Assembly (NCBI GenBank): GCA_013180625.2 | Contig: SNVD02013737.1 | Span: forward strand, 1-64,000 | Length of the DNA stretch: 64,000 nt | Source: Boswellia sacra | Taxonomy: Eukaryota > Streptophyta > Magnoliopsida > Sapindales > Burseraceae | Reading direction: 5' to 3' | Shown: one piece after another, positions 18,096-42,149 of the stretch | Position numbering within the stretch: the first letter of the stretch is position 1 | How the letters are laid out: each line of letters opens with the position of its first letter | Translations under genes and position numbers: made by a program | Notes under the pieces: generated by a model | Told to the model about the DNA's origin: nothing | What the model saw: the letters and a program-made list of their open reading frames with translations, nothing else | The model's database searches: none

Positions 18096-18100
18096 GATCT

Positions 18101-19633
18101 TAACACATCCAAAAATTATTATCTCCCAAGTATAAAAGTGTCGAAGTAATAAACCCGGTAAGATTAAGGTCGATCCACAAGGAAGGGGATTTAGCGCTAC
18201 AAACTAAAAGGTAAGCAAATATGATATGAATGATTTAAATGAATAACAATATAATACTAACAAATAAAAGTTAAGAAGCTAGGCGGTACTACTGACCATT
18301 CAAATGTGAAACAACAACAAAAGGTGGTAAAACCATCCATAGGAAGTAAAACCTACTATAGCAAATGCAAAAAAAGTTCATAAGCAATAAATGAGAATAA
18401 TTAAAGTACAAAAGTAAGATAAATTAACACAATTACAATGAAGACTAAGGTTAGGGGATTCGCCCTTAATATATCAAATAAGGATAAACAGCCTAATTAT
18501 AACTCAATTGGAATCCACACATCAAGGAGGTTCCAATCAGAAGGTATGTTATTTAAGCCAATTTTAGTTATATAAATTATATTTGTTTCATTACCAATAT
18601 TTATACCACTTCTTGTAAATGGGTTCAAACATCCAATGTGCCAATCATCATATGTCTACAACAAATAAAGATTCCTAACTAGACTTATGTCGGTAAGGAA
18701 GAACCATGGGATATCTAGAAAAAATCCAAGTATTTGATATGCCAAGGATTTTCTACAATAGCTCAAAACCTCCACTTTACGAGTGGTGTCAAGATTGATT
18801 AGAAAAATAAATATAAATCATATAAAATAAATAACACAAGATTATGATTATTAAGCACATGTCAAGGGTTAGAAAATAGTTATTCTTATATTAAGGGTTT
18901 CACCCTTTCACCTTAGCAAAATAGAATTTAGTAAGATATTATAAAAGAAAGAAAACAATTTCCAAGGAAAAGAAGATTTATTAATAACATTAAAGCACAA
19001 GAGAGAAAAACACAATAACAAGAGATCCCAGCCGAGGTCAAAATATCCTAATGGGTCACAAAGCACCTCTATTTGTAGATATATTGAGGGGCAGACTTGT
19101 CATATTACAAAGGGACAATTGTAAAATATCTTGTTGACAATTTGAATCATCATGTGCACCGACTTTGACCACCGATTTCTGTACTGAATTGTTTAGAATT
19201 TTGGTCACATATCTTCATAAAAGTTGTAGATATTTCTCTCGGCTTTCTAGAACATCTTGATTCATACGATTTTGATATCAAGCGATATGATTAAAATACA
19301 AAGGCATGGTCAAGCTAGGCCGAAACTGAAGATGGTTCACTTCAAGCCCATTTTTGGTATACTAAAAGCCTGGATTTGATGATGCTTGTGAAATATGATC
19401 TTATAGATAATTTAATCAGCTTTCCAACAAATCAAGATTTGCACCATTATTATCTATAAATAGAAAGTTATGTCCATTTTATCGAACTTGTAACAAAACC
19501 AAAATTAAGATGAAGTTAATTCAAAAGATACAATGATTATAAATATGCTTAAGTTGAGGAATTTAATGACACTATCATAGTAAAATAATGGATTAAGCTC
19601 TTACTATAATCATACATATTTAAGTGTTCATCA
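18101..19633 (-). repeat. 3' LTR of gypsy element (1533 bp)
   Basis: Minus-strand start TGATGAACACTTAAATATG at 19633 and end GGATGTGTTA at 18101. It matches 34057-34251 plus 40798-42149 throughout (shared phrases include GTCGAAGTAATAAACCCGG). The preceding minus-strand bases (GTTGGCGAGTA) are a degraded polypurine tract. The minus-strand TAACA/TGTCA terminal difference between copies is a point change. Confidence 0.88.
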
Positions 19634-19810
19634 TACTCGCCAACCAGCTTAGTCCCTAACAATTAAAGCGTTATTATTTAGAAGTGATTTATAGAATTTT
19701 ACATGTAAGGTGGTCATTATTGCATTGTTCTTGATTCTATTCAAATAAACAAACTCTCAACCAGTTGTTTTCTCTCTCTATTTTTTTTAAGAATCATGTA
19801 CCCTTCAGTC

Positions 19811-20221
19811 TGTTGGTGTTAACGTGGTACCTACATGTGCCATGCACATGTTGAGTTTTTGTTTAATTTGTGATAAAAATAGAATAGTATTTTGGTTCCT
19901 ATTTTACAATTTCTAGATGATCATTATAGGAAGTATTTGATTAAAAATAAATATCTCCTCAGATTAGGAAAATGTTTCTTATATCCTAATAAAAATAGGA
20001 GAATATTTAATTGTGTCCAAATTCCTTTAGGAGTTTAACTATAACACTTCCTATTTTATTTCTCCTAATCCTAATATGATTTTAATTAGAATTTTTACAG
20101 GATTTCTAGGAGATTTCAGTCAAACCTCTAGCTATATATACAAAGCTATTCATGTGGCTGATGACATGTGATTGAGAGATCAACGTGTTGGCTATTTTGG
20201 TTATGAGAGAGTATTGAGTTT
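19811..20221 (+). repeat. 5' LTR of copia C, truncated
   Basis: Matches 28283-28692 of the 3' LTR from TGTTGGTGTTAACG to GAGAGAGTATTGAGTT. It then jumps directly into gag-leader sequence, so about 0.5 kb of LTR and the primer-binding site are deleted. Confidence 0.88.
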
Positions 20222-20259
20222 CGATCACCTTGATCTGGAAGGATGGAGTTTATTCACAA

Positions 20260-21939
20260 TGGAGAATCTGGAACGTAACCACCTATTCTTGATGATGGTC
20301 ATTACCCATATTGAAAAGTAAGAATGATGATGTATATCAAATCTCTTGATGACAGGGCATGGACTAGTGTGTTTAAAGGATGGACACACCGCCAACAAAG
20401 CTGAATGCTTTTGGTAATGCCAAACCAAAACCAGAGGATGAATGGTCTGATGAAGAATACTGACGATCTAGTTGGAACTCCAAGGCTCTTAATACAATCT
20501 TTGCTATAGTAGACTTAAACAACTTCGGACAGATTTCTAGATGCAAAGTGGCCAAAGAAGCATGGGACATACTTGAGGTAAAACATGAAGGTACTGCATC
20601 TGTTAAAAGATCTAAATTGATGAGATTAAATTCTCAATTTGTAAATCTGATGATGCATGAGGATAAGTTAATTTCTGAATTTTACTCTAAGATATGTCAC
20701 ATTACAAATTTGGCCTATATGCTTGGCAAAACTTTCACTGATGCATAAATTGTTAGCAAGATAATTAGGTCTATTCCAGATAAATTTCAACCTAAAATTT
20801 CAGCCATTGAGGAAGTTAAAAACACTGATGAGATGAGGGTTGATGAACTGATCGGCATCCTCCAAAACTTTGAAATTAACCAAAGTACTAGGAAGCAAAA
20901 AGGTAAAAGCATTACATTCAATGTGAAAACTGAAAAATCTGATGATGAAAGTAGTGATGAGCTTGATGAAACTAATTCTAAACATATTGCTTTTCTAACA
21001 AGAAATTATGTCAAGTTTATGAAAAGAAATTTCAAGAAAAAGAATAGAGGAAAGCTATCAAACTCATGTGAAGAAAAATTCAGAAAGTTCAGTAAGGAGA
21101 ATGACAAGAGGAAGCTAAAACAATCTGAAAAGAAAGGGCAAATTCAGTGTTATGAATGTTCTGGTTATGGACATATTCAATCTGAATGTGCAAATCTCAA
21201 GAAGAAGAATAAAGGGCTGACAGCAACCTGGAGTGATGAATCAAAGTCTGAGTCAGAAGATCAAGATTGCATGAGCAACTTTGTTGCATTTACCACATAT
21301 GCAGCTGATGAAGGAAAGGTTGTTATGTCTAACATAACAAAAAATTATAGAACCAATATTGATCATTCGGATGAAGAAGAAGGACTAGAATACTATGAAG
21401 GGTTGCAAGAGACATACAATGCACTCTATGATGAATGACTGAGTCAGAAAGAAGAAATCAAAACCTTGAAAAAGGAGATTGAAGTTCTGAAATGTGAAAA
21501 AGCCTATGCTGAAAACCATATCACAGAACTTGAGACTGTTTTGACAGTCAAAACAACACACATTGAGAAAATCACAACAAAATTGATTAAAAGCAAGAAG
21601 TGTGTTGATCAACTCAAAATTGGAGCAGCCAAACTTGATCAGGTGTTGAACCTTGGAAGAGACAACTCCAACAAACATGGATTGGGGTATACAGAAGGTA
21701 ATATTGCATCTACATCAAAAACAGTCTTTGTAAAAGCTTCAACAACAGGTAAAAATTCTGAACTTAACTCTTTAAAGTCAAGTCCTACTTCAAAGAGTGA
21801 TGAAACATTTGTTTCTCCTCTAAGTTCGTTCAAATCCAAGCTTGAAAAGGTAAGGACATTCATTCCTACTTGTTATTTTTGTGGTAAAAAGGGAGATATT
21901 AGGCCTAGATGTTTTAAATTGTTGAATCTATTGCATTAA
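20260..21939 (+). pseudogene. gag of copia C
   Basis: The frame carries PPILDDGHYPY and MMYIKSLDDRAW (start of copia gag). Next come AKEAWDILEVKHEGT and a leucine/lysine-rich capsid region, the zinc knuckle CYECSGYGHIQSEC at about 21149-21190, an acidic spacer, a Lys/Glu coiled-coil-like segment (about 21440-21620) and a second knuckle-like CYFCGKKGDIRPRC in which His is Asp. Gag packages the RNA and assembles virus-like particles. In-frame stops near 20325, 20460, 20747 and 21436, plus a frameshift near 20395, make it a pseudogene. Several of these stops are at positions where Trp or Gln is expected. Confidence 0.85.
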
Positions 21940-22051
21940 AGATCAAAACATTTCAAACTGTTATCTAAATCACGACTGCAGCGGGTTAGGAAAGACAAAA
22001 CAGTATGCCATGTTGCTTTTACTACACTTAATCATGCTTTTAATGATTTGT

Positions 22052-23225
22052 AGTATTTTGACAGTGGTTGTTCCAGGCACATGACTGGAAATAAACTATT
22101 TTTAACAAATTTTAAAGCATGCAGGATGGTAATGTCACCTATGGAGATGGAGCAAAAAGTAAGATCATTGGTAAAGGCACTTTGAATGTCAAAGGTTTAT
22201 CCAATTTTCAAAATGTTTTGTTAGTTGAAGGTTTGAAAGCTAATCTTATTAGTATTAGTCAGATATGTGATGACAAGTATGTTGTTAATTTCACACAAAA
22301 CAAATGTATGGTCTTAGATGATTTTGGTAAATATATTCTTGAAGGTAAGAGATCTTCGGATAATTGTTATTTGATTAAAATTGCATTTCAAGCTAGGATT
22401 TCAGATTTAGAATTGTGGCATCAAAAGTTAGGACACTTAAATTACAAAGGCTTGGTTAAATTAACTAAGTTAGGTGCTGTAAAAGGAGTTCCTAAACGTG
22501 ATGACAAAGTTAATGAAATTTGTGGACCATTTCAAATGGGAAAACAAATTAGAAGTTCACACAAATCAAATCCACATCTTAGCACATCTAAGATACTTGA
22601 TTTGCTTTATATGGATCTTATGGGTCTTATGCAAATTGAAAGCATTACAGGTAAGAGATACATATTTGTCTGTGTGGATGATTTTTCTGGATATACTTGG
22701 GTTGATTATATTAAAGAAAAATCTGACACTTTTGAAGCTTTCAAGAATCTTTGTGTTAAGCTTGAAAATGAGCAAAATAGGAACATTGGAAGGATTGTGA
22801 GAATAAGAAGTGATCATGGCAAGGAGTTTGAAAATGTTAGTTACGTTGATTTTTACAAATATCATGGAATTGATCATGAATTTTCAGCTCCTAAAACTCC
22901 TAAACAGAATGACATTGTGGAAAGAAAGAATAGAACTCTACAAGAGAAGGCTAGAGTGATGCTTAATAGCAAGAAGTTGACCAAGAGGCTATGGGCTGAA
23001 GCAATAAGCACTGCCTGTTATATTTCAAATAGAGTTTTTCTTAGACCTGGCACTAACCAGACACCTTATGAAATTTTGAAAGGTAGGAAACCTAATTTGA
23101 AATATTTTCATCTCTTTGGATGCAGGTGTTACATCTTAAATGACAGAGAGCAGTTAGGAAAATTGGATTCGAGAAGTGATGAAGAAGTCTTTGTGGGATA
23201 TGCTCAAAACAACAAAGCATTTTGA
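22052..23225 (+). pseudogene. Protease and integrase region of copia C
   Basis: The aspartic protease site DSGCSRHMTG begins at 22060, followed after a frameshift near 22115 by a 368-codon open frame. This contains the protease flap region, the pre-integrase zinc-binding part (LWHQKLGHLNYKGL at about 22412, then a degraded Cys pair) and the integrase core (FVCVDDFSGYTWV, RSDHGKEFEN, NDIVERKNRTLQEKARVML). It ends with the GKR-type tail LKGRKPNLKYFHLFGCRCYIL. The normal QNGxVER is QNDIVER here. Integrase joins the cDNA to the target. The frame ends at 23225 and the linker to RT (23226-23570) is broken. Confidence 0.88.
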
Positions 23226-23569
23226 GTTTACAATCTAAGAATTGAGGCGGTCATGGAATTTGCAAACGTAGTATTTTATGACCTTGATGATTATACAAAG
23301 TACTAACAAGAGGAAAGCATAACCAGTTTCACAAAAGATACAGAAAAATCAGATTCAGACAACAACAAAAAGGAAGATGTTGTTATAAAAGAGGAAACAG
23401 CTACTGTTACACCTGACGTAACAGTTACATCTGACAACTTAGATTTGAACAGAAGTTCAATCTGGGATGATGAAGAGAGAAAAGATCCACCCACATGGAT
23501 TTAGAAGGCACATCCAGCAAGTTCTATAATTAGAACACTAGATGGAATGATGAAAACCTAGAGCAAGGT

Positions 23570-25126
23570 AAGAAATCAGGTAAGGTTTGCTTGTTATGTT
23601 TCTTTAGTTGAACCAAAAAATGTGAAAGAAGCCTTAAGGGAAGATGTGTGGATTCAAGCTATGCAAGATGAACTTAATCAGTTTAAAAGAAATGAAGTGT
23701 GGGAATTAGTTCCTAGGCCAAAAAATGCAAATGTCATTGGAGCTAAATGGATTTTCAAAAATAAAACTGATGAAAGTGGACAAGTAGTTGGAAATAAGGC
23801 TAGGCTAGTTGCACAAGGTTACACACCAGTAGAAGGCATAGACTTTGATGAAACCTTTGCACCAGTAGCTAGACTTGAGTCAATCAGATTACTACTTGCA
23901 ATTGCTTGTTTGCTTGATTTTAAGTTTTACCAAATGGATGTTAAAATAGCATTTTTAAATGGCTATCTCAATGAAGAAGTCTTTGTTGAACAGTCTAAAG
24001 GATTTGAAGATCTTAAACATCCTGATTTTGTGTACAAATTGCACAAAGCTTTGTATGGTTTGAAACAAGCTCCTAGAGCATGGTATGAAAGGTTGACAAA
24101 CTTTTTAACCAACAAAGGTTATAAAAGAGGCAGCAATGATAAGACTTTGTTTATCAAACATGCATCTAACTATCTTATTGTTGCACAAATATATGTTGAT
24201 GACATTGTTTTCAGATCAAATAACAAAAGCAAAACTAATGAGTTTTTAAGTTGATGCAGGAAAAGTTTGAGATGAGCATGGTAGGAGAATTAAATTTCTT
24301 TCTTGGATTACAAGTTAAGCAAATGAATGATGGGATATTCATATCTCAATCAAAATATGCTAAAAATCTTGTAAAGAAATTTGGGCTTGAGAATTTAAAA
24401 TCAATGAAAACTCCTATCAGTACTAACCTTAAACTTTTAAAAGACAATACAGAAAAAGATGTTGATACAAGTTTGTACAGAAGTATTATTGGTAGCCTGC
24501 TATATCTCACAACAAGCAGACCAGATTTATGCTTTAGTGTAGGACTTTGTGCAAGATTTCAAGCAAATCCCAAAGAATCACATCTTGCAGTAGCCAAGAG
24601 AATCATCAGGTATGTTCATGGAACATGTGATTATGGAATATAGTTTTCTAAAGATACAAATGATTGTCTTGCAGGGTTCAGTGATGCAGATTGGGCAAGA
24701 AATGCAGATGACAGAAAAAGTACTTCAGGAGATTGTTTTTATCTTGGTACTAACTTAGTTTCATGGCACAGCAAGAAGCAGAATTCAATTTCTTTATTTA
24801 CAGCTGAAGCCGAATACATAGCAGCAGGGAGTTGTTGTATGCAACTATTATGGATGAAGCAAATGTTGAGTGATTATGGTATTGAACAAAAGCCTATAAC
24901 TGTGTTTTGTGATAATACTAGTGCTATAAATATTTTCAAAAATCCTGTTCAGCATTCTATAATAAAACACATTGATATTAGATACCATTTTATAAGGGAA
25001 CTAGTAGAATCTAAGATGATACATATTGATTACATCTCCACGGATAGACAATTGTCTGACTTGTTCACTAAGGCATTGGACACAACAAGGTTTGAAAATC
25101 TAAGAAAAGCCTTAGGTATCTGTTAG
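23570..25126 (+). pseudogene. Reverse transcriptase and RNase H of copia C
   Basis: RT domain motifs are well preserved: [20 protein letters not shown] (about 23690), [51 protein letters not shown] and the catalytic YVDD at about 24194-24205. A frameshift and stop near 24252 split the domain. It continues with GELNFFLGLQVKQ, SLLYLTTSRPDLCFSVG and, after a TAG at 24641, the RNase H part with FSDADW, EAEYIAA, DNTSA and the final STDRQLSDLFTKAL. RT/RNase H makes cDNA from the element RNA. Only two lesions interrupt pol after 23622, so C is fairly young. Confidence 0.9.
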
Positions 25127-25963
25127 TTATATGAATGAACACAATATGCTATTATGTTATGCATATTTGTAGTATCATAAGTTTTCTTCTAATTTAACAT
25201 GTTTGAGCTATGATAAAAATTTGTGTGAATAATTAGATACTGATTTAAAATGAAAAATATAGAGAGGGCTACCAATATATGGTGTGTGAAAGCCATCATT
25301 GAAAGTAACCTCAGGGTATGTAGAAAATATGTTGAGGTCACATACTCACATGAAAAAGGCTACCACTATATTGTGTGAAAGCTACTGTATTAATCTAGAA
25401 AAGTTTCCATTGAAATCAATTTTTGTGTGTGTAAAAAGCATGCTCAAGTGGTTCATTCAATTGAATCAAAATAGCTTTCATGAGAAAATTACTCAGCTCT
25501 AACATATGCTTTCTTAAAATGATACATATGATAATCTAGATATTATTGTTATGCTATTATTAACTGTGTTTTGTTACTTTTTTCATAACAATGTCCTATG
25601 TGCTTATTCGAAATATAAGTTGCTTGTGTGTCCATGTGTCAAAAATGTCAGGTCAGCACTATTGAATTGCGAGGGAGAAGTCTCAGTGGCGGGAATCCTA
25701 ATTCTATTAGTATTCCTTATTCAAATTAAAATCAAATTTGAACTGCGGTGTTTAATGGAAGTTATTAAACGATTTTGAAAAGGGAAATTATTACTAAATT
25801 TTTGTTGAAAAACAAAAATTCTTTAAATTTAGCCTAGTATATATCAAATAGGATTTGGGCTTCTCCTGTTCATACCATACCTCACCTACAGTTGCTTTCC
25901 TGTCCTGCGTCTTGTTTCTCTATTTTTGTTTTGGAAATCTTCTACAGATCAGAAACCCTAGCT
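25127..25963 (+). other. Spacer between pol and envelope-like ORF of C
   Basis: No gene is recognised. It holds repeated phrases like GTGTGAAAGC[CT]A and AAAAGGCTACC (25275-25400). Their reverse complements occur in the matching spacer of element D (about 44830-45000), so this is a conserved non-coding part of the family, possibly the leader of the downstream ORF. Confidence 0.55.
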
Positions 25964-27664
25964 ATGGCAACCTCATCAAACTCGACAAAGACTGCTAGTG
26001 CTTCCTCTTCCTCCAACGACTCTAGTTACAATAGCATGTATCGATTGTTGTCGATCTCGTCATCAGTGAGGACGAGCAAGTGCCGGTGAAGAAGATTAAA
26101 GACAAGGTCAAGCTGAAATACAACAAATTCCTCATAGCTGCTGTCAAACAGAAGTTTGTCAAGGTCATTTCACAGAGAAAACTGAGTTGGAAAGGCCAAT
26201 GAAACTCTTAGACTTCAACACATATGGTCTCAGTGAGATGATTGAGTCCAATTACTGGACTCGAACGGTATCAAACTTTCTTCCTCCTGTAAAAACTTTG
26301 ATACAAGAATTTTATGCTAATATCTCGACTGTCATTGACGATCCTAAGAGTTTTCATTATCACAAAGTTTACTGTCGAGGGAAGTTTGTGAAATTTTCTC
26401 CCAATGTCATAAACTCTTTTCTAGACATTCCAATAGGTAGTATGCATTCTTTAGATGAAGAGTATTATATGGCAGAAATAGTTAAGGAAGTAACTGGTCA
26501 AACAGACATTGAATGGAAACAAAGAGATGACATTGACCAGAAGTTCCTTAGAAGAAATACAGAGTGTTACATAAGATAGCACAGTTTAATTGACTTTCTT
26601 CTTCCTATCAAAATCAGGCTCGGGAAGACAGAGTGAAACTTCTATTTTGTTTAGGAACTAATCGGCCAATAAACTTTGGCTTGTTAGCCTATAGAACAAT
26701 TGTACACATTGGATCCTATCACTCTGATTACTATTTGCTTGTGTTCCCCTATTTGATTCAAGGGATTCTTGCTCAGAACAATATTCTTGTGAGCTCTAAT
26801 GAACAGACAGAAATTTTGTCTAAGTCCATCACCAAGGGATTTCTTCAAAGATTGTATGACCAATCTGACTTACCTGCACCTGAACCAAAACCAAAAAGAG
26901 TCAGGAAAAACCAATTGAAAATTGTTGAAGAAAAGCTTGATTTGATCAACTCTACTTTGACAGATATTATGTAGGAGTTGAAGGACATTAATCTCAAGCA
27001 ATCTGTTTTGGAAGCTCAGTTTACCAGACACTCTCGGTCTACAGCACCACAATCCATGGAACCTAAACTTGTGGTTCCTGAAAAACCAACTGAGGAAATA
27101 CCTGAGGCAGATGAACCACTACCTGAGGAAGATGCTTAAATGCAATCAAGTCATGCTACAAAACCTGCCGTTAAGACAGATAAAACAGCAGCACAAAAGC
27201 TGAAAGAAAAGTCAATCAGGGCTTTTGACAAGGGATATAGCAGGAAGGGAAAGAAGAAACTTAATATGGTGAAGAAATCATCTGACCAGAGAAAGAAGTA
27301 GAAGCTAGCATCATCAGCTCCCACTTTGCGAGATGAATCTGAGTCCGATGAACCAAAACAAGTAGAGTCCGAAATGAAACAGCCCTCACCACTTGCTGAG
27401 ACAAAATCTCAAGATATCCTTCTCCCTGCAGTAGCTGAAGCAAAACCTCATCCACCACTACCTCAATCACCAACTCTTCCAGCCGATGAGTCACTGGTTC
27501 CTTCTACACAACAGCATGTTAAGGCCACCAAAACCAGTGCAGAAAGAATACAGCAGGAGATACGCAGAGTTGTAGCTGAAGTCACTGCTACTTCCTCTAA
27601 TACTACTGAGGCTCAACCAGAACCAGTCCTCTCTAAACAGCCAGCACCAATTCCATTGGATTAA
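25964..27664 (+). pseudogene. Envelope-like/plant transposon-type ORF of copia C
   Basis: After RNase H the element has an additional gene. It starts at about 25964 (MATSSNSTKTASASSSS) and, after a frameshift near 26060-26170, continues ERPMKLLDFNTYGLSEMI, VKTLIQEFYANIS, YCRGKFVKFSPNVINSFLDI and, after stops at 26577 and 26971, into Pro/Glu/Lys-rich sequence to 27664. The LIQEFYAN...V[KR]GK.V.FSP..IN.FL pattern is what I recall from the 'putative plant transposon protein' domain of Sirevirus-type extra ORFs. The second half is low-complexity and Pro-rich. I see no clear signal peptide or membrane helix, so a true envelope role is unsupported. Element D has a homologue at 44353-42700. Confidence 0.75.
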
Positions 27665-27764
27665 AATTGTTGCTCGCAGATCCATCAAACACTCTGGTAG
27701 TTCCACCTCACCACAGTTAGAAAGTCTCCTAGACTTAGTTAGGTTTTGGCCACTTGTGCTGAAA

Positions 27765-28282
27765 TCCAGGGGGAGATGAGGGCGAAGCTACTTGCTATAT
27801 TTTTTTCTGATTGCAGAACTATTTTTATTTTTTTGTTATCTGTTTAATCATGTTTCTCTCTCTGCTTACTATTTTTTGTTGCTTGTTTCTCGAAGGTGTA
27901 AGTAAGTAGTAAGGGGGAGTAAGAAGAAATTTTTATGTTTGCTTTATGTTTTCATTTGAGATATCTTGATTTGATGAATGTTTTGCTTGGATGTTTTGCT
28001 CTGATCATGATCTGATTGCATTGATTGATATAATTGATCATGAATTAATTAAAGTGTGTTGCTTGATCAGTTCGACAAAGTCATTTTGATTGTAGGATAT
28101 AGTTATTCTGACAGTGTTCTATTATGAGTTTTGTAACAGCTCACTGGTTAATTCTTTACACATGACAATTTCTGTTTGTTATTTCATGATAGCTTATTGT
28201 CATGATTGACTTATCATGTGTGATATTCTCTGATCAGAAACAGTTTGGTGTTTTCATCACAAGTTGCCAAAAAGGGGGAGAT
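27765..28282 (+). promoter_or_regulatory. Multiple polypurine tracts of copia C
   Basis: Purine runs CCAGGGGGAGATGAGGG (27767), AAGGGGGAGTAAGAAG (27911) and AAAAAGGGGGAGAT (28269-28282) precede the 3' LTR. The last, adjacent tract is the expected primer; the other two are the extra tracts of Sireviruses. The rest of the segment is T-rich and non-coding. Confidence 0.82.
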
Positions 28283-29220
28283 TGTTAGTGTTAACGTCGT
28301 ACTTGCATATGTCATGCACATGTTGAGTTTTTGTTTAACTTATGATAAAAATAGAATAGTATTTTGATTCCTATTTTACTGTTTCTAGATGATCATTATA
28401 GGAAGTATTTGATTAGTAATAAATATCTCCTCAGATTAGAATAATGTTTCTTGTATCCTAATCAAAATAGGAGAATATTTAATTGTGTCCAAATTCCTTT
28501 AGAAGTTTAACTATAACACTTCCTATTTTATTTCTCCTAATCCTAATATAATTTTGATTAGAATTTTTACAGGATTTCTAGGAGATTTCGGTCAAACCTC
28601 TCACTATATATACAAAGCTATCCAGGCGATTGATGACATGTGATTGAGAGATCAACGTGTTGGCTGTTTTGGTTATGAGAGAGTATTGAGTTCGGTATTC
28701 CATGAATTCATAGAAAAGAGCTTCAACGCAAAAGGAATGTCTTTATTCATTTAATTCTTTGAGTCTTTTGATTCATGTATAAGTAGTAAAAATCATACAT
28801 GAGTTGTTGGTTGAGTCTGTATGAGTTAGTAGACACTTGGGATAACTTGCGGGTTAAGTGTTTATGTAATTCTGCGCAGACGTCATTGTTATGTGTAACT
28901 TAACAGTGTGTTGTTAAGTTTTCTGTGACAGAGAGTGGGCAGTGTCACTAGAGTTTAGGATTTTTGCGAAGATTTTGTTTGTCAAAGATTAGGTCAGTAA
29001 ATGAGAGTGAGTCAGCACTGTAAAAGGTCCTAGAGATTGTACAAACGAGAACTTAGTGAATTATAGCTCTATAGCTGTCCGTGGATGTAGGTTTTATAAC
29101 TAAGCCACATAAAAAATCCTCCTGTGCCAATTTACATTATAGTTTACTGTGTTGTTATTTATAACTGTATACCTCCAGAACTCTCACAGTTAAAATATTA
29201 ACAAACCTTCTTATTGTGCT
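28283..29220 (+). repeat. 3' LTR of copia C
   Basis: Starts TGTTAGTGTTAACG directly after the polypurine tract; a TATA-like CTATATATAC is at about 28602-28611. The left 410 bp match the truncated 5' LTR. The right end is 29220 if CAGTC (29221-29225) is the target duplication, or 29203 if judged by the terminal TAACA. Confidence 0.8.
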
Positions 29221-29359
29221 CAGTCAACACATGAATATGGGGCTTATTAGAAAGAAGTCATATCGGTTCTAATATATGTTAAGGCTAACATCCTTAGGCA
29301 GGGACATTCATTCATCATTATTTTTATTTTTGTATATTTTTTTTAGTAATACATTTTTA

Positions 29360-30980: not shown

Positions 30981-31030
30981 GTCTATGCAACTCCCTAGCT
31001 ATATGTGTAAAGTGAAGAGCAAGAGATGTT

Positions 31031-31041: not shown

Positions 31042-31249
31042 GTGCGAAAAGGTATTCTAATGATGACATCTATATAGGTAGCTTGGCTATTTGTTGAAAA
31101 AAGTTTGACAATAAAGCATAGAAATTAAAAAAAAATGACTTAAATAAGACACAATAAATGCACAAGTCAACCAAAAGATAGAGATATTAATTAAAAAATG
31201 ATAGCTGTAAGGCATTAAAATTAAAAAATGATAGCACACATGCATATGT

Positions 31250-31808
31250 ACAGGTAGTTGTGACTGTGGCTCACATCTTCCTTTGGTTTTACGTCCAGAA
31301 ACGACTTAAACACCTTCTATGAGTTGGAGATATGCTTCCCATCTAGTTTTCTTATAAACTGGCAAACAGGGTCTTTTTGAGTCAGATTCCTAAGACTATA
31401 ACGTTTCTGCTCGTCTTGAAATTGTGTCCATAATTTTAAAATTTCACGCTGCATAATTCCACAAGAATCGTCTCAAGAGTTAATTGGATATTATCCAAAG
31501 ACTCTATACTCAGTCCATTCTTAATGAATTGTAGCTTATCCTCTTGAATATTAGACAAATATCACAAGGAGGGGCAATGCTGGTTATAAGTCCTTCGTGC
31601 ACATTTATGACAAAACTTGTAACCTTTTCGCTCTTCGCTTTTTGGCGTAAGAGCTTTTTCCCAAACCTGGCATGTGGGAAACAAGATTATCTAAAAACTC
31701 ACAAGAAAATCGAACCTTGGCTTCAATTAACCATCTTAAATTAGCAGGAATACCCTTGCGCATCAGCATCCTTAGTCTTTCTACACAAGCTTTGTAAATT
31801 TTAAGCAA
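31250..31808 (-). pseudogene. Unidentified coding-like remnant next to LOG
   Basis: The minus strand opens with MLKIYKACVERLRMLMRKGI and continues PANLRWLIEAKVRFSCEF, then KSSYAKKRRAKRLQVL. It moves through a frameshift into a Cys/His-containing stretch (CHKCARRTYNQHC, about 31610-31570), QEDKLQFIKNGLSIESLDNI and, in another frame, REILKLWTQFQDEQKRYSLR and QKDPVCQFIRKLDGKHISN. Frame changes and stops break it, but the composition is protein-like over about 550 bp. I do not recognise the family. It sits between gag and LOG in the same orientation, where pol would be, so it may be a second captured host segment or a diverged retroelement ORF. 31810-32380 shows nothing recognisable. Confidence 0.4.
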
Positions 31809-32381
31809 ATAATTTTAAGGAAGAGAGGGAAAATGTTTGTGCAGATTCAAGAAAATGGTATCCATGTGAAGAAAATGAGAGAGAAGAAAAGAAAATGAAT
31901 GTAGGATGAGCAACAGCTTTTAGGGAACTGAAAAACCGACTTTAAAAGTCATGGAGTACCGTATCCGCCACTTGACCGGGAAACAAAATAAAATAAAAAC
32001 ACAAGAAAGAAAAAAAAGAAAATGAAAACAAAGTAGAAAATGATAGAAAAACATAGAATAACAACAAAAACAGAAAATACGGTACAGACAGATAAAACCT
32101 GATTAATCGTGATAGACAAGGTCCACAAAGTGAATTTCTTCGAAACTTATAAATTAATTTACCATGATAAAAAATATGCCATTGAGGTGGTATCTCTTTT
32201 TTCCTTTATTTGTGAGAATGGAAGAGATTACCACTGGTTGAGTTTGTTTGTCCTTGAGGCATGCATTCTTGAGTGTGGATGTTTCTTTCTGCCTTTTTTC
32301 AAAACATGGCTCCTAACACTTAATCTCCTTCACCTGTACAAAATCAAGTAATGAAAATTCTTTAGAAGTAATAGGCTCTAA

Positions 32382-33870
32382 TTACACACTTGGTTCAAAT
32401 GAACTAGTTAACCTGATTTCTGAAGGACTTGAGAAATTCTCATTTCGGATACAGTCTTCCACATTAGTTTTAGTCCTACTCGCTTCGTCATTTTCATCAT
32501 GCTCGAAAAATTCATTAATGTCAAAATTTTGGTTAAGTTCCTTTGCATGATGACATGAGGGCATAAGTGAGGATTCAGTCTTTTCCTTGTTAGGTGTAGG
32601 TTTATTAACCTCTTCCTTACCCTTTGAGATTGATTCATCGTCTCTCTTAGAAGGGTTAAGAACATCTTCTTTATCAACCTTACCATCATGAAGAGTACTG
32701 AACGAATCTTTATCTAGATGTTGGCCACTTGAATTAACATGTGGATTGATGGGGTTTGGCTCCATTTGAGATGGAAACTCACCTTTCTCATGAGAACTAA
32801 GTGCAAATGCAAGTTTTTCAAGAGCATCATTCAAGTTTGCCATACTCTAAGCAGTTTGACTATTAAAAGCCTCTTGTTTTGCAATGAATGAATCAATGTT
32901 TCTTCAAGATCCTCACAAGATGAATGATCATGAGCTTTTTAAAAATTTTGATATGATTGAAAGGGAGGTTGGTAAGATTGTGCATTGTTATTATTCCTCC
33001 AATCAAAATTCAAGTGATTTTTCCATCCAAAATTTTGTGAGTAAGGACTAGGATTTGACCTTTGGAAAGTGTTTAAAACATTGGTTTGTTCATGGAGACT
33101 TTTCCTAAAGGTAGGCACAATTGGCCACTCATCTGTAGGATGATCATTAGTATTACAAATATGACAAACAATTTCTTGCATAGACCATATTTCTAAATCC
33201 TCGACTTTTCTAGCTAGGGATGTAAATTTAGCATGAAGATCTGATTCTCCCTAAAGTTATAAATGCCTTTACTAGATGTTCTTGGTACCTCATAGGTGCT
33301 AACATTATTCTAATTTTGGGCATTTTTCGCTAGTAAGTCTGGGTAATCCATGGCTTCATCACGGTCTTTATTTTCAAATTGTCCATTACACATTAATTCT
33401 ACCATTTTTCAAGCTTGATGTGTAAGATCTTCATAGAAAATCAAAAGTAGTCTCCATGTTTCCAAACATTGATAAAAGGTCTCTCCTTATTTTTGAGTGA
33501 AAGTGATGATTTGCCTTTTGAGAGAATTTGTTATATAGGGAGGAAAGAATTTTTTAAGAAATTTTTGTTGCATTTCATCCCATAAACTAATGGATCCTGA
33601 CCTAAGATTTTGTAGCCATGTTTTATCTTTATCTTTTAAAGAAAAAGGAAAAAGCTTTAATCTAAAGATGTTTATGCTACAATTTAGGTTACTATATGTG
33701 TTACAAAACTCTTCAAATTCTCTCAAGTGCAAATATGGGTTTTCAACATCTAGGCCATGAAAGTGGCGTAAAAATTGAATGAAATTCGGTTCATGGTTGA
33801 AATATTTTGCATCATTAGGGAGGACTAAGCATGATTGTGCACAAGTTCTTATAAGATTTATGCAGTCCAT
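32382..33870 (-). pseudogene. gag-like region of Athila/Tat-like gypsy element
   Basis: The minus-strand frame has FIQFLRHFHGLDVENPYLHL, REFEEFCNTYSN, LKLFPFSLKDKDKTWLQNLR and EMQQKFLKKFFPP, the standard gypsy gag (retrotransposon gag domain) motifs, in 33870-33487. After a stop it continues with the QCLETWR-type segment, a zinc knuckle CHICNTNDHPTDEW (33170-33130, last Cys replaced by Trp), an Asn/Gln-rich stretch (about 33100-32940) and an acidic Ser/Lys-rich tail (32843-32382). The tail would normally lead into protease, but no protease or RT follows. It encodes the capsid precursor of the element and is broken by several stops. It starts about 190 bp inside the primer-binding site. Confidence 0.85.
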
Positions 33871-34033
33871 TAATGTTCTTGATTGGGTTTGAGCATGTTT
33901 TGCAAAGAAGATGAGTGGCTCCTAACAATTCTACCAACAATGCAAAGAGAAAGAAAAAATGAACACATGCAAGAAAAATAAAAATAGAAATGAGAAATGA
34001 AAATACTTAATTTTGTATGCTAAATTTTACCTT

Positions 34034-34056
34034 TCCCGGTAACGGTGCCAAAAACT
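34034..34056 (-). promoter_or_regulatory. Primer-binding site of gypsy element
   Basis: Minus strand reads TTTTTGGCACCGTTACCGGG immediately after the LTR end (GATGTGTCA). Athila-type elements have TTTTTGGCGCCGTTGCCGGGGA at this place; two transitions separate them. It primes minus-strand cDNA synthesis with a host tRNA. Confidence 0.85.
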
Positions 34057-34251
34057 TGACACATCCGAAAATAGGATTATCTCCTAAGTATAGGAGTGTC
34101 GAAGTAATAAACCCGGTAAGACTGGGGTCGATCCATAAGAAAGGAATTTTAGCAGTATAAACTAAAATATGAGCAAATATGATATGAATAATTGAAATAA
34201 TTAACAAGATGATATGAACAAATAAAAGTAAAGATGGCAGGTGGTACTACC

Positions 34252-36038
34252 TGTTAGCCCTAAGGCTACATGATAATTTTAATGATAATAATACACATTG
34301 ATTAATTGAGATTTACTAACATGTTTATTTATGTGCAAGAGTAAATTATAAAATCAAGAAAAGGCTTATTAAAATGAAGTGTTGAAGCTAAGGAGAATAC
34401 TACATGTTAAAGGCACCAAAGTTTAAAAACGAGGTTTGACTCAAGGAATGTGACACATGAGCAATGTTCAATCAATTGGTCATATATTTCTCTAAGATGT
34501 CCAAATGATGTGATTCTTGAGTCTTTGGAAAGTTTACTCAATTTATAACATTTTATATGTTTTAAAGAAATTCAAATTTCAAGTGTAAGGTTGTCCAAAT
34601 TATCATGCAATTTGAAAGACAAATGGAAGCAACTGACATGAGCACTGAATACTCTTTTGGACATATCTTGAGCTAAACAAATCAAAATAATTTGATTCTT
34701 ATGGCATTGGAAAGAGGACTTAATGAATCACATTTCATATGTTTTGAATAAATTCAAATTTCAAATAGAAGGCCGACATAATTGACATGCAATTCGGTGG
34801 ACTGACATAGAGAAGAAAAATCAACTCACATGAGCACCAAATGGTGTTTTGACCTTAAGATAGAGATATCCAAATACTTTGATTCTTAATGTTTTTGGAA
34901 AGCTTATTCAAATATACAGATCTTTTATGTTTTGAAGAAATTCAAATTTCAAACAGAAAGTTGACAGAATTACCATTCAATTTGGTGGACTGGCACAAGG
35001 AAGAAAAATCAAGTCACATGAGCACCGAATGGTGTTTTAGCCATATCTTGAGATAGAGAAGTTCAAATGACTTGATTCTTGATGCGTTGGAAAGCTTATT
35101 CAATTTTCCAGATCTTTTATGTTGCATAGATTTTCAAATTTCAAACAAAACATTGACAAAAATGGTAAAAATAATTACGATTTTTATGGTGGGTAGAAAC
35201 TTTGGAGTTTGTGTCTTCACTTGATCAAGTTTATCCCATTTGCCTATAAAAGGAGCCCTTCTCCCATGCATTAAGGAAGAGCAAGAGAAGTATCTCTCAA
35301 CCAAAAAACAAGAGAAATATTAAGTCTAGAGAACTTTTATATTCTTTATCTACTATTTGAAGAGAGTTATACTTTTGTTGTAAAAATTATCTTTGTTCTT
35401 GTATTGTGGTGAGAGTGAGATAGTCTTGTAAAGGATAAAAAGTTATCGTTGAGTGAACTCTTGGTGTGGTGTTATCAAGAGTTGAAGGAAGTTGCCTTGG
35501 TGAGGTTGTTAATTAAGAAGAACTCTTGGTGTGGTGTTATCAAGAGTTGAAGAAAGTTGCCTTGGTGAAGTTGTTCATCAAGAAGAACTCTTGGTGTGGT
35601 GTTATCAAGAGTTGAAGAAAGTTACCTTGGTGAGGTTGTTCATCAAGAAGAACTCTTGGTGTGGTATTATCAAGGGTTGAAGGAAAAAGTTTTGGTGAGG
35701 TTGTTCATTAAGCAAGTTGTAAAGATTTCTACAACTTAGTGGAAAGCTTAGCTCGTGGAGCTAGGAGTCCGTGGACGTAGGCAAGGTTTGCCGAACCACG
35801 TAAATTGAGTTTGCACTTTCTCTATCCCTTTCCTCTTTACATTTAGTTGCACTTGTGATTGTTCATTATTATTATTCTTTTAATTGCATCTTTGATAAAT
35901 TCTAATTTCATCTTCTTCACCTTTATTCTCAAAGAAAGCGTGAACTAATTTTGATCTTTCAAGAAAGTTTTATAAATCCGTTTTGATAAATAAAAACCCA
36001 TTTCACCCCCTTCTTGGGTTGCCATACCTGAGTCAACA
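34252..36038 (+). repeat. 5' LTR of copia B
   Basis: TGTTAGCCC...GTCAACA, homologous to 1140-2985. TATA box CCTATAAAAGG at about 35243-35253; tandem 65-bp-type units at about 35450-35710. Confidence 0.93.
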
Positions 36039-36093
36039 AGTGGTATCAGAGGAAGGTTGCTCAATTTTTTAAATCTTAATCGATTTTTGAGCT

Positions 36094-37315
36094 ATGACAA
36101 CTTTTAATTCAACTTCATATGTTGAGGGACTTTCTATCTTTAGACCTCCATTTTTTAATGGAAGTGATTACTCTTATTGGAAGACTAGAATGAGTATTTT
36201 CTTGAAATCTTTTGATTATGATTTGTGGTCTATTGTTTTGGAAGGACCTTTTGTTCCTACCAAAATTGAAAATGGGGAATGCATGCTTAAAGAACCTAAA
36301 GAGTTTAGTGAAGATGATAAAAAGAAATTGAGTTTGAATGCTAAAGCTATGAATGTGTTATATTGTGCTCTAGATAAAAATGAGTTTAATAAAATATCTA
36401 CTTGTTCTATGGCACAAGAAATATGGCACACATTTGAAGTAACATGAAGGAATTAGTCAAGTTAAAGAATCCAAAATTCGTATGCTAGTTCATAGTTATG
36501 AGCTTTTTAAGATGAAACTGGATGAATCAATTTTTGAAATGTTTACTAAATTTATGGATATTGTCAATGGTTTGAAATCTCTTGGCAAATTTTATTCTAA
36601 TGTTGAAATGGTGAGAAAGATTCTTAGGTGTCTACCAAAATCTTGGGAGCCAAAAGTGACGGCAATTCAAGAAGCAAAGGACCTCACCAAACTACCATTA
36701 GAAGAACTTATGGGTTCTCTCATGACTCATGAAATCACCTTGAAGGAGAATGAAGAAGATTGCAAAGTGGCAAACATGTGCTTCATGGCTTTAAGAGAAA
36801 ATGAGATAAGTATTCTAAACCATGATCCTAAGCTTTGATATGATAAATTACTTGAAGCATTCCAAAATTTACATGTGTAAGTTGATAAGCAAAATTCAAA
36901 AATCAATGCTTTCAAAAAGAAGTTAAAAATGATGTTATCTCAATTAGAAGAGTTGGTGGAAATAAATGAAGCTTTAGAAAATGAAAATGAAATTTTAAAG
37001 CAAAAAGATTTTGAAAGTTTGGAAAGTCAAATACATTTTTTAAAAACTGAAAATGAGATTTTAAAACAAAAGGATTTTGATAAATTAGAGAAAGAAAATG
37101 TTATTTTGAAAAAGGAAAATAATGACTTAAGAAATATTGTTGATAGTTTTACAAAAAGCACAAAAAATTTGAATTCTATGTTACAAAACCAAAGGTGTGT
37201 TTTTGATAAAAGAGGGTTAGGATATAAAAGTCATAAAAATCAAAAGTATTTTAAAAACTATTTTGTTCATGCATTTTCTAGGAATAATCCTAATCATTCA
37301 TATAATTATTGTTGA
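36094..37315 (+). pseudogene. gag of copia B
   Basis: Begins MTTFNSTSYVEGLSIFRPPF, the N-terminus of this family's gag, followed by DYSYWKTRMSIFLKSFDYDL. A frameshift near 36430 interrupts the frame. It goes on with KILRCLPKSWEPKVTAIQEA and LPLEELMGSLMTHEITLKEN. At about 36755 it jumps to DCKVANMCFMALREN, whereas element E has about 110 residues in between, including the Lys-rich region and the zinc knuckle. The junction lies in GAAGAAGATT, which occurs at both ends of the missing piece. A Lys/Glu coiled-coil-like part (36929-37190) follows. Loss of the knuckle should impair RNA packaging. Confidence 0.85.
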
Positions 37316-37439
37316 AGAAAAGAACACAAAATGCATTCTTGTTACATTAAAAGAAATCCTAATTTGAAACAAATATGGATTCCAAAAAGGACCATAACTA
37401 ACCCCCAAGGACCCAAGAACATTTGGGTACCAAAAAGTC

Positions 37440-38760
37440 GCTCTTTTAATGTTGATTGTAGAAACAAAGGAGTGGCAAACACAAGTGGTACTTAGATAGT
37501 GGATGCTCAAGGCATATGACCGGAGATGCCTCCAAGTACTCAAGATTAATCATGAAGAAATGAGGATATGTGACCTTCGGTGATAATGCCAAAGGAAGGG
37601 TAATCGAACATAGTGATATTGGTAACCCTTCTTCACTTATTATTGAAAATATTTTGCTTGTTAATGGTTTGAAACATGATTTGATTAGCATTAATTAATT
37701 GTGTGATAAGGGATATTTTATTACTTTTGAGCATAATAGATGTGTGATTAAGGATGTTAATAACAATAAGACATTATTTGTTGGTAATAGATGTGGTAAT
37801 ATTTATACAATTGATATTGATGTTAATGATCATGTAGAAAAGTGTTTCATTGTTAATCATGATGCTTGGTTATGGCATAGAAGGTTAGGACATGCTAGCA
37901 TGGACACAATTTCAAAATTTCAAAATGATTTAGTTGATGGTCATCCAAAAATAAAATGCTTGTCAATTTGGAAAACAAGTGAGAACTTCTTTTAAACAAA
38001 AGAAGTTTATTTCAACAAATAAACCTCTACAATTACTTCATTTGGATTTATTTGGACCATCAAGAACTCAAAGTCTTGGTGGAAAGTATTATGTTTTTGT
38101 TATTGTGGATGATTATTCAAGATTCACCTGATTATTATTCTTGAAAACTAAAAATGAGGCCATACAAGTTTTTTCAAAATTTGCAAAAAGAGTTCAAAAT
38201 CAAAAAAGGGTATTCTATTGTGTCCATTAGGAGTGATCATAGTGGTGAAGTAGACAATGTTGCATTTGAAAATCTTTGTGATGAAAATGGTTTTGAACAT
38301 AATTTTTCCTCATCTAGAACTCCACAATAAAATGATGTTGTTGAGAGGAAAAATAGAACTATCCAAGAAATGGCTAGGACCATGTTACTTGAAAATAATT
38401 TGTCAAAATATTTTTGGGCCAAAGTCGATGTTGGAATTTTTGTTGGCTACTCCAACCATGGTAAAGCATATAGAGTTTTTAACAAAAAGACTCTTACTAT
38501 TGAAGAATCTATGCATATTGAATTTGATAAAACTAATGTTATTTCTTCAAAGAATTTAGATGATGATATTGTTGAGGTAGAAAGGCAAATCAATGAATCA
38601 AGGCTTGATGAAAAGAGGCAAGATGAATTATAACTTCAACAAGAAAAGCTTGAGGAAGTAAATGATTCTTCCCAAGAATTACCAAAGGAATGGAGGTACG
38701 CAAAAGCTCACCCTAAAGATCTCATTATTGGTAAACCATCACAAGGTATGAGAACTAGAT
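37440..38760 (+). pseudogene. Protease/integrase remnant of copia B
   Basis: The protease site (LDSGCSRHMTG, at about 37495), the pre-integrase WHRRLGHASMDTISKF (about 37875) and the integrase core (VDDYSRF, SIRSDHSGE, DVVERKNRTIQEMAR) are recognisable in changing frames. At about 38420 the core end is joined directly to GIFVGYSNHGKAYRVF, omitting roughly 180 bp, and at about 38770 it is joined to post-RNase H sequence. No RT motif (YVDD) is present, so B cannot replicate alone. Confidence 0.85.
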
Positions 38761-39004
38761 CTTCTTTTGTTTTTATATGATAATCTTTGAATGGTAGCAT
38801 ATGTTAAGGGGAAGAATATATTTAGGGGGAGTAATTAATTTGATTAAATCTTTTTGATGATAACAAAAGGGGGAGAAATGGATGGTTTGCTTATATTCAT
38901 AACAATTGCTCTCTTTTTGCTTATTATCGATTTTATTTTCATTCTTGATTTTAGATTAAATTTTAAAGCAATCAATGGTTTGTCATCATAAAACAGGGGG
39001 AGAT

Positions 39005-40792
39005 TGTTAGCCCTAAGGCTACATGATAATTTTGATGATAACAATACACATTGATTAATTGAGATTTACTAACATGTTTATTTATGTGCAAGAGTAATAT
39101 CATTAAAATAATTGTAAAATCAAGAAAAGGCTTATTAAAATGAAGTGTTGAAGCTAAGGAGAATACTACATGTTAAAGACACCAAAGTTTAAGAACGAGG
39201 TTTGACTCAAGGAATGTGATACATGAGCAATATTCAATCAATTAATCATATATTTCTCTATAGATGTCCAAATGATGTGATTCTTGAGCCTTTGGAAAGC
39301 TTACTCAATTTATAACATTTCATATGTTTTAAAGAAATTCAAATTTTAAGTGTAATGTTGTCCAAATCATTATGAAAGTTGAAAGACAAATGGAAGTAGC
39401 TGACATGAGCACCGAATACTCTTTTGGACATATCTTGAGCTAGAAAAATTAAAATAATTTGATTCTTATGGCATTGGAAAGAGGACTTTCATATGTTTTG
39501 AATAAATTCAAATTTCAAATGGAAGGCCGATACAATTGACATGCAATTTGGTGGACTGACACAGAGAAGAAAAATCAACTCACATGAGCACTGAATGGTT
39601 TTTTTACCATATCTTAAGATAGAGATATCCAAATGCTTTGACTCTTAATGTTTTGAAAATATTATTTAAATATGCAGATCTTTTATGTTTTGAAGAAATT
39701 CAAATTTCAAACGAAAAGCTAACAAAATTATCATTCAATTTGATGGACTGACACAAGAAAGAAAAATCAAGTCACATGAGCACTGAATGGTGTTTTGGCC
39801 ATATCTTGAGATAGAGATGTCCAAATGACTTGATTCTTGATGCGTTGGAAAGCTTATTCAATTTTTAAGATTTTTATGTTTTGTAGATTTTCAAAATGCA
39901 AACAGAACATTGACAAAAATGGCAGACAATATTATGGTTTTTATGGTGGGCAGAAACTTTGGAGTTGGTGTCTTCACTTGATCAAGTTCATCCCATTTGC
40001 CTATAAAAGGAGCCCTTCTCCCATGCATTAAGGAAGAGAAAGACAAGTATCTATCAACCAAAAAACAAGAGAAATATCTAGTCTAGAGAGCTTTTATATT
40101 CTTTATCTACTCTTTGAAGAAAGTTATACTTTTGTTGTAAAAATTATCTTTGTTCTTGTATTGTGGTGAGAGTGAGATCTTCTTGTAAAGGATAAAAAGT
40201 TATCCTTAAGAGAACTGTTGGTGTGGTGTTATCAAGAGTTGAAGAAAGTTGCCTTGGTGAGGTTGTTCATCAAGAAGAACTCTTGGTGTGGTGTTATGAA
40301 GAGTTAAGAAAAGTTGCCTTGGTGAGGTTGTTCATCAAGAAGAACTCTTGGTGTAGTGTTATCAAGGGTTGAAGAAAGTTTGGTGAGGTTGTTCATCAAG
40401 AAGAACTATTGGTGTGGTGTTATCAAGGGTTGGAAGAAAAAGTCTTGGTGAGGTTGTTCATCAAGCAAGTTGTAAAGATTTCTACAATTTAGTGGAAAGC
40501 TTAGCTTGTGGAGCTAGGAGCCCGTGGACGTAGGCAAGGCTTGCCGAACCACGTAAATTGAGTTTGCATTCTCTCTATCCCTTTCCTCTTTACATTTAGT
40601 TGCACTTGTAATTGTTCATTATTATTATTCTTTTGATTGCATCTTTGATAAATTCTAATTTCATCTTTTTCACCTTTATTCTCAAAGAAAGAGTGAACTA
40701 ATTTTGATCTTTTAAGAAAAGTTTTATAAATCCTTTTTGATAAATAAAAACCCAATTCACCCCCCTCTTGGGTTGCCATACCTGGGTCAACA
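39005..40792 (+). repeat. 3' LTR of copia B
   Basis: TGTTAGCCC...GGTCAACA preceded by the purine tract AACAGGGGGAGAT. TATA box CTATAAAAGG at 40001-40010; 65-bp-type units at about 40215-40465, one shortened. Confidence 0.93.
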
Positions 40793-42149
40793 CTACCGAC
40801 CATTCGAATAAAAAACAAAAAGAAAATGTGGCAAAACCATCCATGGGAATAGGAGGCAAAACCTACCATACCAAATAAAAGAACAAGTTCATAAACAATA
40901 AACAAGAATACTAAAATTACACAAGTAAGAGAAATTAACACAATGATAATAAAAGCTAAGGTTAGGGGATCTGTCATTGATATTTCAAATAAGGATAAGC
41001 AACCCGATTATAACTCAATTGGAATCCACACATTAAGGAGGTTCTAATCGAAAGGTATGTCATTTAAGCCTATTTTAGTTATATGAATTATATTTGTTTC
41101 GTTACTAATATTTATACCATTTCTTGTAAATAAGTTTAAGCATCCAATGTGTTAATCACCATATGTCTACAATAAATCAAGGTTCCTAACTATACTTATG
41201 TCGGTAAAGAAGAACCATAAGCATTTAGAAAAGATCCAAGTATTTGATATGCCAAGGATTGTCTACAATGGATCAAGACCTTCACTTTATGAGTGGTGTC
41301 AAGATTGATTAGGAAAATAAATATAAATCATATAAAATAAATAGCATAAGATTATGATTATTAAGCACATGTCAAGGGTTAGAAAATCTTTATTCTTATA
41401 TCAAGAGTTTCACCCTTTCACCTTAGCAAAATAGAATTTAGTAAGACATTATAAAAGAAAGAAAACAATTTCTAAGGAAAAGAAGATTTATTAATAACAT
41501 TAAAACACAAGAGAGAAAAACATAATAACAAGAGATCCCAGCCAAGGCCAAGATGTCCTAATGGGTCACAAGGCACCTCAATTTATAGATACAATGAGGG
41601 GCAAACTTGTCAAATTACAAAGGGACAATTGTAAAATATCTTGTTGACAATTTGGATCACCATGTGCACCGACTTTGACCACTAATTTCTGCACCAAATT
41701 ATTTAGAATTTTAGTCATATATCTCCATTAAAGTTGTAGATATTTCTCTCAGCTTTCTAGAACATCTTGATTTATACGATTTGGATATATATATCAAAAG
41801 ATATGGTCAAAATACGGAGGCATGGTCAGGTTGGGCTGAAACTACAGATGGGTTCAATTCAAGCCTATTTTTGGTCTACTAAGAGCCCAAATTTGATGAT
41901 GCTTGTGAAATATTATCTTGTAGATAATTTAATCAGGTTTCCAACAAATCAAGATTTGCACCATTCTGATTTATAAATAGAAAGTTATGGCCATTTTATC
42001 AAACCTATAACAAAAACCAAAATTAAGATGAAGTTAATTCAAAAGATGCAAAGACTACAAATATGCTTAAGTTGATGAATTTAAAGACACTGTTAGTGTA
42101 AAATAATGGATTAAACTCTTATTAATCACACATATTTAAGTGTTCATTA

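Follow-up and report, generated by a model that had tools for sequence, protein, structure and literature searches.

Why should a gene for cytokinin activation lie between the long terminal repeats (LTRs) of a plant retrotransposon? The question is raised by a 64,000-nt stretch of Boswellia sacra DNA (contig SNVD02013737.1, positions 1 to 64,000; hereafter, the window), in which a Ty3/gypsy element on the minus strand (18101-42149) harbours a homolog of the cytokinin-activating gene LOG. The first-pass annotation described a gypsy retrotransposon carrying LOG in place of pol. Comparison with other copies in the genome revealed no isolated capture at the expense of pol. The element is a broken representative of a lineage whose 3´ part bears two accessory genes, LOG and a gene for a carlavirus-type cysteine-rich nucleic-acid-binding protein (NABP). 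We estimate a probability of roughly 0.7 that the window holds an old, pol-less and decayed member of an Athila-like Ty3/gypsy lineage with selected NABP and LOG accessory genes.

LOG as a 3´ Accessory Gene

The window's own assembly (638.6 Mb, 7431 contigs) was searched for the LOG domain PF03641, yielding 10,198 loose candidates, 150 of which were scored. All 150 are whole domains without a stop (E of 8e-37 or better), giving at least 150 uninterrupted LOG domains in the genome, a lower bound that is biased toward intact copies. Twenty loci, designated by L numbers, were fetched from the upper rows of this LOG-profile ranking, with long contigs preferred; three pieces were truncated by the end of their contig. 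Each of the 20 aligns with the element sequence of L019 or L016. The possibility of other copies in the host was thus borne out, and these are often younger than the window copy.

LOG is flanked by direct repeats of 88-99.5% identity in half of the loci (in L025, the pair covers only 183 nt within the piece), and no such pair was seen within the pieces fetched for the other ten. Among six copies whose 5´ ends were fetched, exact target-site duplications (TSDs) were found in L016 (GAGAG), L013 (GTTCT) and L017 (CCCTT) and one with a single mismatch in L024 (TCAAT/CCAAT), while none could be settled for L011 and L019. The copies could be dated by LTR divergence, as had been suggested: in nine of them, measured on the LTR portion within the loci, it ranges from 0.006 (L013) to 0.116 (L010), and therefore some copies are young.

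Reverse transcriptase (RT) and/or integrase frames were read 5´ of NABP and LOG in 6 of the 20 loci, five of them in the commoner family (L012, L014, L021, L026 and L027) and one, L022, in the window's own lineage. Pfam scans of L014 and L026 confirmed RVT_1, RNase H and integrase domains; in L022, they confirmed the integrase core. Because LOG sits behind pol in these fuller relatives and pol was deleted elsewhere, the idea that LOG replaced pol was rejected; LOG is a 3´ accessory gene that was retained upon pol loss. A single pol-deletion junction, with about 2.65 kb of pol missing, is common to 11 of the 20 loci. L013 and L016 seem to represent further pol-less forms, and the window groups with L016.

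The window is collinear with L016, which places LOG within the element: apart from small breaks, L016 positions 1293-6455 correspond to window positions 34251-29187, and positions 6451-7722 then correspond to 19810-18561. Collinearity between L022 and L016 extends from a point ahead of NABP into the 3´ LTR.

Two side observations concern the commoner family. Its pol-deleted derivative seems, by frame reading of L011, L017, L018 and L019, to lack the gag core as well but to retain protease-like sequence, NABP and LOG; of these frames, the first of L011 was given to Pfam and matched no family. Furthermore, repeats between NABP and LOG contain two to four CACGTG (G-box) motifs in L011, L012, L014, L018, L019, L024, L026, L027 and L028. 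These repeats upstream of LOG are absent from L016 and the window, and are a possible internal promoter.

The Element in the Window

The LTR boundaries and the exact GATCT duplication proposed in the first-pass annotation were upheld. The 3´ LTR (18101-19633, minus strand), defined by alignment to the other LTR, ends in TG..TA, with the CA mutated. The 5´ LTR (34057-42149, minus strand) is split into 34057-34250 and 40792-42149 by a later insertion, copia B. Both parts align with 18101-19633 as one interrupted LTR pair, at 82.1% identity over 196 nt (34057-34250) and 87.6% over 1360 nt (40792-42147). LTR–LTR comparison indicates that the original ends were TG..CA, each window LTR having one end mutated. 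GATCT stands at 18096-18100 on the left and at 42150-42154 on the right.

For dating, a yearly substitution rate per site of 1.3e-8 or 7e-9 was used. The Kimura two-parameter (K2P) divergence of the window LTRs, computed from both aligned pieces, is 0.134, which at these rates corresponds to 5.1 to 9.6 million years.

The Athila-type primer-binding site was likewise found where it had been placed, as TGGCACCGTTACCGGGAA at 34033-34050 (minus strand). In L016, the site reads TGGCGCCGTTGCCGGGGA, which we take to be of the tRNA-Asp type; the same type occurs in L013 and L017, and the window copy differs from it by three mismatches. The last interior part before the 3´ LTR (19634-19810, minus strand), delimited by collinearity with L016, contains a degenerate polypurine tract at the place where that of L016 is clear (agttggggggtg). 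The LTR pair with its TSD, the primer site and the polypurine tract mark an LTR retrotransposon, and the TGGCGCCGTTGCCGGGGA-type site combined with 5-bp TSDs is as in Athila (L016, L013 and L017; three mismatches in the window).

The gag core (33487-33921, minus strand) was confirmed as PF03732 (E=2.2e-10). It is followed by an open frame without a Pfam match (32382-32846, minus strand), considered the gag C-terminal region, since its counterpart in collinear L016 also lies behind gag. Seven interior pieces were submitted to Pfam, and scores above a family cut-off came only from the gag piece and the two LOG pieces. The reported lack of protease, RT, RNase H and integrase motifs held in these seven pieces, in frame reading and in the collinearity with pol-less L016, although not every frame was profile-scanned. 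With LTRs and gag but no pol motif found on that basis, the window element has the same form as L016 and is a non-autonomous, Athila-like derivative with an internal LOG, of the kind known as LARD/TR-GAG.

The LOG homolog itself (30330-30980, minus strand) is followed by the 3´ non-coding region of the element (29187-30329, minus strand), whose collinearity with L016 extends to position 6455 of the latter. The homology extends over the full 216 codons, as first noted, with PF03641 at E=3.5e-31 (stops entered as X) and matches to the solved Arabidopsis LOG-type proteins 2a33 (E=1.4e-48) and 1ydh (E=2.5e-43), which we take to be LOG3 and LOG8. The intact reading frame did not stand: three in-frame TAA codons mean that this copy cannot make a full LOG protein, and it is a pseudogene. 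Its motif has also lost the glutamate, reading PGGFGTLEG where intact relatives have PGGFGTLEE (L016) or PGGYGTLEE. All 150 scored copies have the PF03641 domain, and the PGGxGTxxE motif was found in all 11 frames extracted from the 20 loci.

NABP, a Second Accessory Gene

The other coding-like stretch noticed in gag orientation proved to be a broken NABP gene (31317-31865, minus strand). By tblastn against the NABP of L028, its pieces span 183 of 184 codons, with two stops and a frame-shift; two window pieces gave no Pfam family. The intact gene, of about 182 codons, follows pol (or gag) and precedes LOG. Three copies were scanned, and in each of them both Viral_NABP (PF05515; L019 E=4.6e-11, L013 E=1.6e-6, L016 E=1.7e-8) and Carla_C4 (PF01623; E=1.6e-5, 2.7e-5 and 1.1e-5, respectively) were above the cut-off, the L019 scores being 43.6 bits against 23 and 25.2 against 20.9. 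By its Pfam membership, NABP belongs to the flexivirus cysteine-rich protein family.

A protein database search retrieved 196 NABP relatives at E of 1e-3 or better, and the best 120 of them include named proteins of Populus, Xanthoceras, Acer, Rhamnella and Orobanche. Among these 120, the database annotates NABP and LOG domains together in four gene models from Rhamnella and Orobanche (P0199, P0221, P0232 and P0236). Furthermore, the Rhamnella gene model P0192 fuses the end of an integrase to NABP; it is 72% identical to L022 over 101 amino acids, with Carla_C4 over the cut-off and Viral_NABP just below it. A sequence search of the PDB with NABP returned no match up to E 1, and viral contigs scanned with the NABP alignment gave 21 pattern stretches, none of which was confirmed.

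Purifying Selection on LOG and NABP

Between families, the ratio of nonsynonymous to synonymous substitutions (dN/dS) is 0.18 for NABP codons 1-155 and 0.18-0.21 for LOG, the LOG value being flattered because the loci were chosen from the top of the LOG-profile ranking. The decayed window copy shows higher values (LOG, 0.33; NABP, 0.24). In the 11 copies sharing the pol deletion, dN/dS is 0.205 for LOG and 0.273 for NABP, and 0.693 for the gag-pro-RT remnant. LOG and NABP are thus under purifying selection, with dN/dS of about 0.2-0.3, including in pol-deleted copies, while the remnant is relaxed. Stops interrupt LOG in 5 of 21 sequences. An early NABP estimate of 0.57, from six close pairs, was superseded by the comparisons between families and among pol-deleted copies.

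A Conserved Block at the 3´ End of NABP

A block of about 150 nt (31246-31400, minus strand) that overlaps the 3´ end of NABP is conserved at the nucleotide level both within and across families. It comprises the last NABP codons and about 60-85 nt past the stop. Between L016 and L028, 30-nt windows are 87-100% identical in the block against 47-83% in the rest of NABP, and identity falls to 37-67% in the spacer behind. Within the commoner family (10 pol-deleted copies), the block shows a mean pairwise difference of only 0.0024, compared with 0.027 upstream of it and 0.063 behind it; between families, the corresponding values are 0.11, 0.30 and 0.50. Copies were taken into this comparison by one exact 15-mer of the block, which introduces a small bias. 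L009, which has no NABP match, keeps only the conserved block at the end of the gene.

A codon-based estimate had spoken against the block: for NABP codons 156-184 in pol-deleted copies, dN/dS was 1.21 and dS was no lower than upstream. It was replaced by the nucleotide alignment, frame-shifted copies having probably been mis-paired. The folding of the block is unremarkable (z of -0.27 and -0.51), and an Rfam search of L016 and L027 gave no match in it, the sole match (snoR71, E=0.0053) lying outside the block and below the gathering score. Since the low variation within one family cannot be accounted for by one ancient recombination event, the pattern makes a functional DNA or RNA signal the likelier explanation. 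Such a signal may serve splicing, packaging, reinitiation or readthrough.

Origin and Distribution of the LOG Clade

In a tree of 44 LOG proteins, those of this genome form one clade with sequences from Reevesia, Diplodiscus, Pterospermum, Xanthoceras, Populus and Primulina (support 100/100, stem 0.76), adjoining Arabidopsis LOG3 and a Dioscorea LOG. The clade spans four eudicot orders, in both rosids and asterids: Malvales (Reevesia), Sapindales (Xanthoceras), Malpighiales (Populus) and Lamiales (Primulina). The retroelement context of LOG was observed directly in this genome, and copy number and gene models suggest it for the other species.

Host LOG genes contain introns. The LOG of the retrotransposon is one unbroken frame, and this difference suggests that it was captured through RNA.

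Later Copia Insertions

Two copia elements are later insertions rather than parts of the element, both on the plus strand. Copia C (19811-29186), with a copia-type RT (PF07727) and integrase, occupies exactly the place where collinearity with L016 breaks; this corrects its end, set at ~29225 in the first-pass annotation. At 26100-26974 (plus strand), an open reading frame in two frames, in the env position 3´ of the copia RT, matches PF20167 (Putative plant transposon protein) below the cut-off. Copia B (34251-40791), inserted into the 5´ LTR, has its own LTR pair (34252-36038/39005-40792, 91.6% identity). Copia B and its relatives elsewhere in the window lie at 1-2985, 34252-40792 and 52224-63686, in pieces ~87-94% identical, and their LTRs contain 65-bp tandem repeats.

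Comparison with Known Systems

Steinbauerova et al. are said to have found, in 2011, a LOGL4-like extra open reading frame in LTR/Athila-like elements of Citrus and Populus. A later paper reports that LTR-element consensuses of two Citrus species contain a LOG/YgdH domain, as do, without filter, those of Populus, "in line with" that work (PMC9289625). The first-pass annotation knew of no described LOG-carrying Athila/Tat lineage, but LOG in LTR retrotransposons is already in print: those elements, like the present ones, are gypsy elements with a LOG domain as an extra open reading frame. In contrast, LOG is here paired with a viral-type NABP in a high-copy, recently active lineage whose pol-deleted derivatives keep both genes under constraint. 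The text of that paper does not contain "carla". It also describes orchid gypsy elements with an AlkB m6A RNA demethylase, likewise a plant gypsy element with an acquired RNA-related enzyme, although the genes differ and AlkB was tested in vitro, whereas the present interpretation is a reading of sequence (PMC9289625).

The cysteine-rich proteins of carlaviruses, allexiviruses and mandariviruses (PF01623, PF05515) share with NABP a basic stretch followed by a CxxC..C..C finger, but here the gene, of ~182 codons, lies in a retrotransposon. The viral proteins are reported to suppress silencing and have been studied as silencing suppressors and pathogenicity factors, and that of chrysanthemum virus B acts as a transcription factor causing hyperplasia (PMC12172455). 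A flexivirus-related sequence is also present in the cucumber genome, in that case a replicase-like piece of an endogenous betaflexivirus rather than an NABP gene inside an LTR element (PMC3136472). A host gene between LTRs is likewise present in maize Bs1 and in other LTR elements that have transduced genes (PMC7264820); here, the gene is also found in pol-bearing elements and is retained under constraint in pol-less ones. A 2019 survey of extra open reading frames counted them from 250 codons up, above the length of LOG and NABP here (PMC6317226). In the literature searched, which leaves most subscription papers outside its coverage, there was no recognisable report of a carlavirus-type protein in a retrotransposon. 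Of the two accessory genes, LOG thus has published precedents in such elements, and NABP apparently has none.

A Model and Its Alternatives

Fuller members of the lineage carry gag, protease, RT, RNase H and integrase, then NABP, then LOG. A distant ancestor would have acquired LOG, most simply once and intron-free, from a canonical LOG gene of a plant. Selection keeps LOG and NABP even in pol-deleted derivatives, which would have to borrow pol in trans. After transcription, NABP may weaken RNA silencing of the element or act in the nucleus. LOG would convert cytokinin nucleotides to active free bases, favouring dividing, meristem-like cells, from which new insertions could reach the germ line. 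The two genes are likely to act as a virus-like module of silencing suppression and cytokinin activation, with which the element may manipulate its host as a virus does.

Several observations weigh against this interpretation. In the five pol-bearing copies, one of which (L021) has three stops, LOG shows a dN/dS of 0.43 (NABP, 0.279), a weaker constraint than in the pol-deleted ones. NABP carries one to three stops in 7 of the 20 NABP-bearing sequences, the window included. The 20 loci are a non-random sample leaning to intact LOG frames, NABP not having been selected for. Our own domain scan of P0199 detected LOG domains only (E 0.01 or better). The AlphaFold model of NABP is poor (pLDDT 64, pTM 0.31), and its BFVD fold matches, in which flexivirus "RNA silencing suppressor" entries are the leading named ones, have E of 0.06 or worse, with top-ten TM-scores below 0.2 by query length. 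Finally, the lineage is placed in Athila rather than Tat by its primer site and by published work, not by an RT tree.

The weaker constraint in pol-bearing copies would fit LOG and NABP being mere passengers, tied to the 3´ region by an old recombination and hitch-hiking with a few source copies without benefit to the element. Host-gene capture by LTR elements is known (PMC7264820), the window copy and several others are broken, and non-autonomous copies do not need their own proteins. However, this is unlikely in view of the dN/dS of pol-deleted copies (LOG, 0.205; NABP, 0.273; neighbouring remnant, 0.693), the PGGxGTxxE motif in 112 of the 120 LOG relatives among the database matches listed as well as in the extracted frames, and the single clade across four orders. 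Purifying selection could also reflect use by the host, the copies being domesticated cytokinin genes spread by the element, and some Populus members of the clade are annotated as LOGL10. Host use is nevertheless very improbable with so many uninterrupted copies, all 20 examined lying within element sequence, with the constraint common to NABP and with old copies such as the window's decaying. There is next to no chance that LOG was a late arrival in this single element, brought by another transposon or inserted as a fragment of a host gene: this was ruled out by L016, where the order is unchanged although the locus and the TSD are different, and by collinear L022, and no separate boundary was found around LOG, the window and L016 being collinear through gag, the NABP stretch, LOG and the 3´ region.

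It is somewhat unlikely, although less so than these alternatives, that NABP is a plant or retroelement zinc-finger protein that was the source of the flexivirus version, rather than being viral in origin. NABPs of the retrotransposon type occur in several eudicots, some in large clusters, and the viral proteins are shorter (77-140 amino acids, some fragments; BFVD ranks 1-12). Nothing decisive stands against it; the direction of transfer would change, but the homology would stay.

Significance

The two-gene, virus-like module may extend well beyond this genome. We tentatively suggest, at rather less than even odds, a widespread eudicot retrotransposon lineage with a host-manipulation module, comprising a relative of flexivirus-type silencing suppressors and a cytokinin-activating enzyme, conserved for the element's benefit since before the rosid–asterid split. 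The module would act in the manner of viral accessory genes or of an oncogene cassette within a transposon, and a strongly conserved nucleotide-level control element would lie at the end of NABP.

Inflated LOG families in gene annotations are probably transposon copies, which calls for caution in annotation; an example is Reevesia pubescens, to which 42 of the 120 LOG rows among the matches listed belong, spread over 15 chromosome labels. Small-RNA silencing keeps plant transposons in check, and to our knowledge few of them counter it with proteins. If the proposal is true, this lineage would offer a case, open to testing, in which a retrotransposon manages both host defence and host cell state, and it would raise the question of the direction in which genes have moved between flexiviruses and retrotransposons.

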